This document shows positions 59,429 through 63,984 of a DNA stretch of 64,000 nucleotides, one piece after another. Position numbers and translations under genes: made by a program. Location of the stretch: contig ONKF01000003.1 of the NCBI GenBank assembly GCA_900318335.1, forward strand, positions 1 to 64,000, in the 5' to 3' direction. The notes beneath the pieces were generated by a model that was not told the DNA's origin, made no database searches, and worked only from the letters and a program-made list of their open reading frames with translations. This DNA comes from an uncultured Prevotellaceae bacterium. Its GTDB lineage: Bacteria > Bacteroidota > Bacteroidia > Bacteroidales > Muribaculaceae. Positions within the stretch are counted from its first letter, which is position 1, and each line of letters begins with the position of its first letter.

Positions 59429-59983
59429 TTACGGCCTGAAAAGGGCGGTGACGAGCGTGATGTGTTTGGAGAGTGAACCGTCGGTGCTCCATTCCAGGTC
59501 AATCCCCAAGAGGTCACGGGTAATGGCCTCGACATCAAAGCCCACAGACTCTAACGAATGGCGCATCTTCCCGGGATGGCGGCAAGGCTTGCCCTCGGGA
59601 CGTGTACACCCCTCGGGGCACAACACGCAACGGAAGGTGAAGCAGCAGCTGCCAGGTGTCTCCCGCTCCATCCCGTAGAGCCGCGGCAACAATTCCTGCC
59701 ATACCTTCTCCATAGCCTGCTTGCCGGCTGCGGTGGCCTGCTCGGGCGTCTTGCACGCCGCAAGTGTCTGCTCGTCAAACTCGATGGTCGTTCCCATCAC
59801 CATCACTGTCTTGAAACCCTCGCTGCGGGTTCTCGGGTCGAAATCAAAAGGCGGACAATTCCACGACTTGCCATACCCCGGACACTCGCGGCAGTAGGCA
59901 TCAAACCGCTCCACATCGCGATAGCGGCTGATAAACTCATCGGCGCAGATGGTCGCCTGACTGGTGGTCACTGTATAACTCAT
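59429..59983 (-). CDS. DUF2284 cysteine-rich metal-binding protein
   Basis: The start MSYTVTTSQATICADEF gives 184 residues. It has many Cys residues in family positions: YCRECPGYGKSWNCPPF near the N-terminus and CCFTFRCVLCPEGCTRPEGK with PCRHPGKMRHSLE near the C-terminus, suggesting an iron-sulphur or zinc site. DUF2284 has no known role. A -7 box TACTTTTG ends only 5 nt before the ATG, so the message may be leaderless. Confidence 0.85.
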   Translation of the reverse strand: MSYTVTTSQATICADEFISRYRDVERFDAYCRECPGYGKSWNCPPFDFDPRTRSEGFKTVMVMGTTIEFDEQTLAACKTPEQATAAGKQAMEKVWQELLPRLYGMERETPGSCCFTFRCVLCPEGCTRPEGKPCRHPGKMRHSLESVGFDVEAITRDLLGIDLEWSTDGSLSKHITLVTALFRP

Positions 59984-59988
59984 AGGCA

Positions 59989-59996
59989 CAAAAGTA
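59989..59996 (-). promoter_or_regulatory. -7 element immediately before the DUF2284 start
   Basis: TACTTTTG (minus strand) lies 5 nt from the ATG at 59983. The transcript would begin at or near the start codon. -33 is not clear. Confidence 0.5.
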
Positions 59997-60061
59997 CAAT
60001 AAATATCTGAAAAAAGGGAGGCCACGACGGTCTCCCTTTCTTCATTTCATGCAAATTGGCA

Positions 60062-62337: not shown

Positions 62338-62419
62338 ATCATTTATCAGCAACAAACGACAATTCAGTAGAGAAAAACAGGCCACTCCACACTTTTAATC
62401 ATTCTATTATGAGGGTGAG

Positions 62420-62535
62420 CAATCAAAAACGGTTGCTTTCCCAATAAACAACCCTTACCGATTGTTTCCTTCACCCACGAACGGAAAAAGCAACTAAAAA
62501 TGGTTGTTTTGATAAAAAACAACTAAAAACGGTTG
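62420..62535. promoter_or_regulatory. Four palindromic sites CAAC-N8-GTTG, probable operators
   Basis: Sites: CAAT-N8-GTTG (62420-62435), CAAC-N8-ATTG (62449-62464), CAAC-N8-GTTG (62491-62506) and CAAC-N8-GTTG (62520-62535). Start-to-start distances are 29, 42 and 29 bp. Sites 1, 3 and 4 share the inner AAAAA[CT]G. Site 4 contains the -33 TTG. The helix-turn-helix protein encoded just downstream is the obvious candidate binder. Confidence 0.7.
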
Positions 62536-62563
62536 CTATTTCCGAAGATATTATCTATATTTG
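62533..62563 (+). promoter_or_regulatory. Promoter of the SatD-like/DUF3307 operon
   Basis: TTG (62533-62535) within palindrome 4, 20 bp, then TATATTTG (62556-62563), 21 nt before the start codon. Confidence 0.68.
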
Positions 62564-62584
62564 CAGCAGAAACATAAAAAAACG

Positions 62585-63232
62585 ATGAAAAATATGATAA
62601 AAGGAGTAATCACAGGAGACATCGTGGGGTCGACAAACATCAAGACCGAATACCGGGCTAACTTGCTGAATTGCTTGAACACGATGAAGGAAGAACTGCA
62701 ATGCGTATCGCCGTTCACGATGGAACTGTTCCGCGGCGACAGTTTCCAGTTGCTGGTTGAAGACCCTGCTGCGGCCCTCAAAGTCGCAATCCTGCTGCGG
62801 GCTGGACTCATCCACCACACCCCCGACAAGGAGAACGGAATGTGGGACGCGCGCATCTCGCTGGGAATAGGAGAAGTGCAGTTCATGGCGGACAGCATCG
62901 TGACCTCGGATGGTGAGGCGTTCCAGTATTCAGGCCGTCAACTCGACACGATGAACAAGATGCGCCTGGCCGTCAAGACCCCCTGGAATGACGTTGACCA
63001 AGAGCTGGAAGTGTCCACGGCATTTGTCGATGACATCATCAAGAGATGGTCAGCCAAACAAGCTGGCATGATCTACTTGTCGCTCAAGACCGACAACCCC
63101 AAGAAAAAAGTCGCCGAATATATCGGCACCTCGGTCCAAAACGTGCGCAACGTGCTCTCATCGGCACGTGAGCCACTCATCAGAATGTATCTTGAACGCT
63201 ACTGCAAAATCATCACCGACCATCTGACCTAA
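62585..63232 (+). CDS. SatD-like protein: cyclase-like fold with C-terminal helix-turn-helix
   Basis: The start at 62585 gives 215 residues (the longer frame begins in the -7 box). The N-terminal part has VITGDIVGST (D12), FRGDSFQLL (D52) and RISLGIGEV (90-98). These three blocks resemble the metal-binding and core strands of class III nucleotide cyclases and of SatD proteins. The C-terminal part has KKKVAEYIGTSVQNVRNVL (about 173-191), which reads as a helix-turn-helix. Whether it makes a nucleotide or only binds one is unknown. It pairs with the DUF3307 gene 8 bp downstream; SatD and DUF3307 are often neighbours. Confidence 0.65.
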   Translation: MKNMIKGVITGDIVGSTNIKTEYRANLLNCLNTMKEELQCVSPFTMELFRGDSFQLLVEDPAAALKVAILLRAGLIHHTPDKENGMWDARISLGIGEVQFMADSIVTSDGEAFQYSGRQLDTMNKMRLAVKTPWNDVDQELEVSTAFVDDIIKRWSAKQAGMIYLSLKTDNPKKKVAEYIGTSVQNVRNVLSSAREPLIRMYLERYCKIITDHLT

Positions 63233-63240
63233 AGGATAAT

Positions 63241-63966
63241 ATGACAAATATTCTGCTTCTACTCAAGCTGCTGTCGTCGCATGTCATAGCCGACTTCTTC
63301 CTCCAATTTGACTGGCTTTGTAAGGGCAAACGCGAGGAAGGCATGCGTGGAATAGCCTTCCAGGCCATCCATGCGCTAATCCATGCCGCCTGTGCCTATG
63401 TGCTGGTGGGCGACTGGTGTGGATGGATCATTCCGCTGGTGATTTTCATCACCCACATCATCATCGACATCACCAAGGTCAAATGGTTCCCAACCAGTAC
63501 CATCGCATTCCTGATCGACCAGCTGGCCCACATTGCCGTCATGATAGGATTGTGGTGGGCACTCTATGCCGATCAAGGCATAGAGTTGGCATGGTTGAGC
63601 GGTATCGCACAGTCGGGCACTTTCTGGGCCATCCTGATCGGTTATATGCTGATGCTCAAGCCCTCGTCGCTGCTCATCAGCATGTTCATCAAGGGATGGA
63701 CCCCGTCCAATGGCATGCAGGCCCAGGGTATGCCCAACGCAGGGAAATGGATCGGATATATCGAGCGGGTGCTTATTCTGACTTTTGTCATCACCGGGAA
63801 CATCGAGGCCGTCGGATTCCTGCTCGCAGCGAAATCCATCTTCCGCTTCGGTGACCTGAACAAGGCTCGTGAGATTAAGATCACAGAGTATGTCCTGCTT
63901 GGCACACTGGCCAGTTTCTCGATAGCGTTGTTGACCGGCTTTGCCATCAATATGTATATACATTAA
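63241..63966 (+). CDS. DUF3307 multi-span membrane protein
   Basis: The 241-residue protein has about six membrane spans. The family motif near the start is LLSSHVIADFFLQFDWLCKG, followed by FQAIHALIHAACAYVL and IFITHIIIDITKVKW, rich in His and Asp within or near membranes, which could form a metal site. The second half (FWAILIGYMLMLKPSSLLIS and GYIERVLILTFVITGN) extends the short DUF3307 core. The function is unknown. It lies 8 bp after the SatD-like gene. Confidence 0.85.
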   Translation: MTNILLLLKLLSSHVIADFFLQFDWLCKGKREEGMRGIAFQAIHALIHAACAYVLVGDWCGWIIPLVIFITHIIIDITKVKWFPTSTIAFLIDQLAHIAVMIGLWWALYADQGIELAWLSGIAQSGTFWAILIGYMLMLKPSSLLISMFIKGWTPSNGMQAQGMPNAGKWIGYIERVLILTFVITGNIEAVGFLLAAKSIFRFGDLNKAREIKITEYVLLGTLASFSIALLTGFAINMYIH

Positions 63967-63984
63967 CCAATTTCCACCATAACT

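Follow-up and report, generated by a model that had tools for sequence, protein, structure and literature searches.

A candidate mobile cassette of a SatD-like protein with a predicted cyclase fold and a DUF3307 membrane protein, preceded by fixed-pitch palindrome arrays

The gene pair and its operator array

The window, that is, the whole analysed stretch of 64,000 nucleotides from an uncultured Prevotellaceae bacterium, carries close to its right end a short cassette in which a series of palindromes precedes a satD-like gene and a DUF3307 gene. Its features are the following.

62360..63984, plus strand: whole cassette (array, satD-like gene and DUF3307 gene); the left edge is approximate
62420..62435, no strand: operator palindrome 1, CAATCAAAAACGGTTG; same position kept in the orthologous loci L002-L005
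62449..62464, no strand: operator palindrome 2, CAACCCTTACCGATTG; 29 bp from site 1, checked in L002-L005
62491..62506, no strand: operator palindrome 3, CAACTAAAAATGGTTG; centre at about -70 from the inferred transcription start
62520..62535, no strand: operator palindrome 4, CAACTAAAAACGGTTG; 29 bp from site 3, centre at about -41
62556..62563, plus strand: -7 promoter box TATATTTG; its register to the array was tabulated
62585-63232, plus strand: SatD-like protein, 215 aa, an open reading frame with a predicted fold; the alternative ATG at 62594 suits the orthologs better
63241-63966, plus strand: DUF3307 protein, 241 aa, presumed effector; PF11750, 63.8 bits against a cut-off of 23

The sequence-only reading of this DNA had described four CAAC-N8-GTTG palindromes, two of them with one changed base, the last one supplying the TTG of a promoter. 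These were found as claimed at 62420-62535: the sites (n = 4) start at 62420, 62449, 62491 and 62520, with spacing of 29, 42 and 29 bp, two are perfect and two have one changed base, and the GTTG of palindrome 4 is the source of the promoter TTG at approximately -33. The promoter itself is also borne out, with TATATTTG at 62556, which we take to be a Bacteroidota-type -7 box. Single CAAC-N8-GTTG sites are not rare in the window (50 matches at one mismatch or less, 32.5 expected; 1 of 100 shuffles is as high). Nowhere else in the 3.15-Mb genome is there a perfect 29-bp tandem of such sites; with three mismatches or fewer allowed, the tandem occurs in 26 places, compared with 20 for a reversed control pattern.

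The four-site array is common to four of the five close orthologs (L002-L005), with steps of 29-36-29, 29-42-29, 29-45-29 and 29-41-29 bp; in the fifth (L001) the contig starts 243 bases upstream of the gene, and no array is seen within this segment. Thus, the symmetric layout of two pairs noted in the window holds for both 29-bp steps, which are fixed, but not for the middle step of 42 bp, which varies. As the outer steps are constant and the middle one is variable, the 29-bp distance may be held by contacts between neighbouring bound proteins.

The SatD-like protein, as modelled from a 24-row alignment (pLDDT 92.5), is predicted to combine a nucleotidyl-cyclase fold (residues 1-135) with a helix-turn-helix (residues 157-214). 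The core of the model is of the cyclase type; class III adenylyl cyclases are its closest structures, and the GGDEF and Cas10 palms come almost as close. Of 55 rows, not thinned for relatedness, 53 have D12 and the other two have Glu in its place, and D52 and R90 are present in all 55. The D12 and D52 regions align in HMMER with TDIEES and GDGF of Ma1120, the match being weak (E 0.2). Position 114 is variable and position 118 is Arg in 37 of 55 rows; their equivalence to the class III catalytic Asn-Arg was placed by eye. The N-terminal domain is predicted to have a class III cyclase fold with both metal aspartates. The cyclase-like blocks around D12 and D52 and the C-terminal helix-turn-helix, which had been recognised from the letters, are thus recovered in the predicted fold and in its comparison with class III cyclases, and we infer that the protein is a nucleotide-binding sensor.

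In 13 of the 24 relatives the helix-turn-helix weakly matches models of sigma-70 region 4. In Pfam the window protein has no match better than E 0.12, and PF16264 (SatD) over its curated cut-off is absent both for this protein and for its whole genome. Among the relatives, 12 of the 24 rows of the alignment (A1) match PF16264 at E 1 or better (best 9.8e-8), and the SatD of locus L019 scores 53.5 bits, over the cut-off of 29. Judged by these matches, the window protein is related to SatD and lies outside the curated PF16264 family. Neither the SatD-like nor the DUF3307 protein matches any family of PADLOC-DB 2.0.0 at E up to 1.

For the DUF3307 protein, the proposed six membrane spans were not upheld, the hydropathy profile showing seven hydrophobic peaks. 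The membrane His/Asp residues had also been pointed out. Members from plasmids and chromosomes (n = 21) share H14, D18, Q22, Q94, H97, E175, R176, K198, R202, E216 and Y217 without exception, and H44, H72, D76 and D93 almost without exception. Four predicted helices carry i, i+4 pairs (H14/D18, H44/H48, H72/D76 and D93/H97), and this arrangement of His and Asp points to a possible intramembrane metal site. The model of the protein is of middling quality (pLDDT 74.3) and gave no convincing match among solved structures.

Palindrome arrays across the family

Loci with homologous genes were gathered from plasmids, viral contigs, genomes of the same family (13 of 149 positive) and genomes of the same order (39 of 247 positive). 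Within the 200 bp that precede the satD-like gene of each locus, the census (n = 57) looked for two copies of one dyad separated by a lag of 18-60 bp; an array was called at a score of at least 20 at lag 28 or 29, and each locus was shuffled 40 times. The census excludes L001 and L027, which lie at a contig edge, L009 and L014 as near-duplicates, and L020 and L033 as the window itself; it also omits 13 of the 43 satD places in the 247 same-order genomes, for which no loci were made.

At 44 of the 57 loci we observed at least two copies of one palindrome at the 28/29-bp pitch upstream of the satD-like gene, compared with 1.78 expected from the shuffles. Lag 29 was seen at 31 loci and lag 28 at 14, the double steps of 58 and 56 bp at 16 and 6, respectively, and every remaining lag between 18 and 60 bp at four loci at most. 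Coding-sequence controls at lags 28/29 yielded none (0/57 and 0/56). L011, L038, L040 and L042 (4/57) have their array in the interval that separates the two genes, so that only DUF3307 is downstream of it, and in L016 it is placed further upstream of the satD-like gene. A clear array by the census rules is missing in eight loci (L010, L018, L054, L058, L019, L022, L051 and L024); L019, L022 and L051 score 19, one point below the threshold, and L024 passes it only if 320 bp are taken.

The letters of the palindrome vary among lineages, but the pitch of 28-29 bp does not. The sites are of the type CAACC or CAACT in the window's group, CAACC in E. kobei and Sphingomonas, ATAAG, ATCG, ATAACC or ATAGG at other chromosomal loci, TAGCC in Vibrio and GGCC in two viral contigs. 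The palindromes upstream of homologous pairs are therefore kept not only in four of the five close orthologs but across the family, and the array of the window is, on this comparison, a local case of a family-wide design. Since the pitch is the same despite the other palindrome sequences, the SatD-like protein likely grips the arrays. The most regular array seen is that of L049, where five ATCG-N10-CGAT palindromes without a mismatch follow one another upstream of satD at intervals of exactly 28 bp.

If the SatD-like protein reads the array, the operator should change together with its recognition helix. Partial Mantel tests were run on 43 of the 48 loci scoring at least 24, thinned at 85% identity (5000 permutations; L003 was removed by hand due to a stray site in its consensus, and the site registers were chosen by script). 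The operator distance is correlated with the recognition-helix distance when the N-domain is removed (partial r 0.325, p 0.0002, which is the permutation floor), and not with the N-domain distance when the recognition helix is removed (partial r -0.005, p 0.54). Thus, the operator tracks the recognition helix and not the N-terminal domain, and the SatD-like protein itself is very likely the reader of the array. That it regulates the pair is well supported by such comparisons, and the four loci with the array upstream of DUF3307 alone give stronger support for control of the membrane partner. Of the autoregulated two-part system proposed for the locus, the regulation of the pair is supported by the arrays, the helix co-variation and the four between-gene arrays, and synthesis of a signal is no more than a proposal.

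Pairing, mobility and neighbourhood

The satD-like and DUF3307 genes are adjacent in 54 of 58 loci, DUF3307 fragments being counted. As for the exceptions, in L035 the DUF3307 frame overlaps the end of satD, L051 and L054 are without DUF3307, and L058 is a fragment; in L051 and L054 DUF3307, a clear array and D12 are all missing together. PF11750 has 39 places in the 247 same-order genomes, and at 34 of these a satD place adjoins (the others are in G347, G277 and G313, and two in G198); 9 of the 43 satD places have no PF11750 match alongside. All 17 plasmid records with DUF3307 have an adjoining satD-like gene. At two loci (L085:7671-10753 and L088:6137-8328) a GH2 glycosidase directly follows the satD-like gene, replacing DUF3307; the SatD-like proteins of both have Glu for D12 and Met for G51, and a clear array is absent upstream.

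The pair is found on several kinds of mobile DNA. E. coli and Klebsiella have near-identical plasmids of 3,770 bp, which are annotated with little besides Rop, mobilisation functions and the pair. One of them, the cryptic plasmid pEC34A (L006, 3770 bp), is mostly taken up by the pair and is near-identical in five Klebsiella records; a search of 5,426 complete E. coli genomes gave no match. On a 10-kb Pseudomonas plasmid the pair lies beside integrases and toxin-antitoxin genes. In viral contigs, with labels assigned by eye, it is situated among phage structural genes (L015) or in a slot before lysis and terminase genes (L016 and L017). The contig L121 belongs to the same phage kind as the latter two, and its DUF3307 follows an open reading frame that resembles the end of a satD-like gene cut by the contig start; the viral contig L124 has a shortened DUF3307 frame and lacks the satD-like gene. 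In L016, L017, L121 and L124 this appears, by the same labels, to be a variable slot of one phage kind, with the pair as one of several fillings.

Of 31 genomes of the window's genus, 5 have the satD-like gene, the window's own genome among them. Among genomes where both flanking genes are neighbours, to which this comparison is limited, the site is empty in G396, G397, G413 and G405, the matches to the flanking S9 peptidase and GH92-like genes (the latter label given by eye) ending 157-219 bp apart, and the cassette is present between these flanks in G000 and G407. In G393 the cassette adjoins the S9 peptidase gene, and the contig ends there. The genome G397 has a distant satD-like copy elsewhere (C24:36261-36845), and this copy, together with the empty site at the window's locus, is a sign of repeated gain. 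By these comparisons the pair is a compact mobile cassette with a patchy distribution. Near the S9 peptidase gene the window also carries a DUF2284 predicted metal-binding protein (59429-60025, minus strand).

Some copies lie within defence loci. The pair is located inside a Type I restriction operon in L074 (hsdM-hsdS-[satD-DUF3307]-hsdR-pAgo) and in L078 (hsdR-HEC-09-hsdS-[satD-DUF3307]-hsdM). The former locus (L074:1965-11931) is densely packed with defence genes, the operon with the pair being accompanied by a prokaryotic Argonaute (pAgo model, E 4.6e-270). In L080 and L082 the pair is beside hsdR; L082 also has AbiLi, and a stop codon is present within its DUF3307 gene. On a Sphingomonas plasmid the pair adjoins genes annotated as a Pycsar effector and cyclase.

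For 20 loci with a control from the same contig, the 120 neighbour open reading frames (of the 140 nearest ones, six of seven per locus) matched 280 PADLOC models at E 1e-5, compared with 53 for 106 of 132 control frames; the two sets are not fully matched, as long control frames were left out, and PADLOC models overlap heavily. The models inspected by name were the best 25 of the 280 and the best 25 of the 53. The 20 largest neighbour frames, taken without a control, include four Type I restriction subunits and one mad3-like ATPase, six more match other PADLOC models, several of them broad, and nine have no PADLOC match. The surroundings of the window's copy are ordinary metabolic genes (named by eye), and several other copies adjoin housekeeping genes. 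Hence the loose likeness to defence pairs suggested by the sequence-only reading is reinforced by the plasmids, viral contigs and restriction operons, but it does not extend to the metabolic neighbours of the window's copy or to PADLOC, where the pair has no match.

Possible function of the pair

The interpretation that we favour, at slightly better than even confidence, is a mobile cassette in which a SatD-like repressor with a cyclase fold and a helix-turn-helix, bound to arrays with the 28-29-bp pitch, would restrain a DUF3307 protein probably harmful to the cell. Based on sequence comparison, this is the best explanation of the pairing, of the arrays with their pitch and variation, of the helix co-variation, of the metal aspartates and of the patchiness, the fold being a predicted one. 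The pair would then probably be a nucleotide-responsive repressor with a membrane effector, of the defence or toxin-antitoxin type. The cyclase domain would bind a nucleoside triphosphate or a related nucleotide, and in this state would make operator binding cooperative between neighbouring dimers. A changed nucleotide pool, caused by phage infection or other stress, would free the array, and the resulting burst of DUF3307 could, via its intramembrane His/Asp pairs, disrupt the membrane and stop growth, such arrest serving as a defence or toxin-antitoxin function.

According to PMC11323703, satD alone among the genes of S. pyogenes is accessory (178/249) and nonetheless essential. We read this combination as a mark of restraint on a harmful partner, and by analogy it is as expected of satD in such a role; the module would thus offer a mechanism for the puzzle. 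Two families that had no known function would also become a single module open to testing, which occurs on chromosomes as well as on plasmids and viral contigs; it would comprise a candidate membrane effector and perhaps a new class of repressor that uses the cyclase fold to respond to nucleotides. The 28/29-bp palindrome pitch is a sequence-independent signature that can find further members, and we suggest that palindrome arrays of fixed pitch may be a general mark of cooperative repressors gated by nucleotides.

A more specific variant, tentative and rather improbable as a whole, is that SatD-like dimers sit every 28-29 bp, or about 2.7 helical turns, and are joined via their nucleotide-filled cyclase domains into a filament winding along the promoter. 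Loss of the bound nucleotide in phage attack would melt the filament and free DUF3307 as a membrane-attacking effector. If the pitch were set by protein-protein contacts, the DNA letters could drift among lineages and the spacing could not.

Alternatively, the pair could belong to ordinary physiology, as an envelope- or acid-stress regulator with a membrane target and no role in conflict. The family name comes from the S. mutans sat genes, linked to acid tolerance as cited in PMC11323703, and the neighbours of the window's copy and of several others are ordinary. However, presence in so few genomes of the genus, the empty sites, the 3.77-kb plasmids, the variable slot of viral contigs and the nesting inside restriction operons all argue against this, and we consider it unlikely.

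Pycsar systems consist of a cyclase plus a membrane effector. The pair is similar in that the SatD-like protein has a predicted cyclase fold, both metal aspartates being present in nearly all rows, and in that its partner, adjoining in most loci, is a membrane protein; one plasmid copy lies next to an annotated Pycsar effector and cyclase. In that case the cyclase domain would make a nucleotide signal sensed by DUF3307, and the helix-turn-helix would merely tune expression. Nevertheless, the SatD-like protein, unlike Pycsar, has a DNA-binding end and an operator array whose co-variation with the recognition helix indicates that DNA reading matters; residue 114, which by eye corresponds to the class III catalytic Asn, is variable; and neither protein has a PADLOC match. 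Signalling of this type is, in our opinion, quite unlikely.

About equally doubtful is that the SatD-like protein acts as an activator, a dimer at -41 recruiting RNA polymerase so that a signal switches the pair on. The promoter register was tabulated for 39 loci whose array lies upstream, taken from chromosomes and from viral contigs of the Bacteroidota type, using the last TAnnTTTG box and the site nearest -30; nine of the 39 have no such box, and the counts stand without a shuffle control. The site is centred at -39 to -41 in 13 of the 30 loci with a box, five of these being the window and close orthologs, and mostly there is a second site approximately 28-29 bp upstream. A centre at -41 is also a classical activator position. 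Seven of the 30 loci, however, have their site between the promoter boxes, with its centre at -19 to -23, and ten have it elsewhere. Both of the preferred registers are inside the polymerase footprint, and hence repression is favoured. The satD essentiality reported in PMC11323703 also fits a repressor of a harmful gene better.

Finally, that the array is bound by another host regulator and not by the SatD-like protein is very improbable, since the operator co-varies with the SatD recognition helix beyond relatedness, the genome has no perfect array other than that of the window, and copies of the cassette on plasmids and viral contigs bring the array with them.

In the literature searched, DUF3307 was found in a single paper, as the best hit of a phage open reading frame, and never together with SatD. 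The module is thus undescribed as far as this literature shows, in agreement with the earlier remark that no function was known for the pair. According to the available text of PMC12255303, the nearest regulatory parallel is RptR, a repressor encoded by the first gene of its island and strongly linked to Type I restriction systems, which, like the array of the window, involves a promoter-proximal series of palindromes (three for RptR). It differs in being a 9-kDa all-helical protein with a 6-bp palindrome in 9-bp repeats, and that text mentions no cyclase domain or membrane partner. The next parallel is the WYL repressors CapW and BrxR, described in the available part of PMC9122588 as palindrome-binding repressors of a cell-killing immune operon, thought to be released by a ligand; they differ in the WYL sensor domain and in their CBASS or BREX targets. 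The SatD proteins of streptococci and fusobacteria (PF16264; PMC11323703, PMC10326533) are linked to the window protein by its relatives, which match their model, and differ in that the portions of these sources at hand describe no array or partner. A Fusobacterium SatD over the PF16264 cut-off also precedes a DUF3307 gene.
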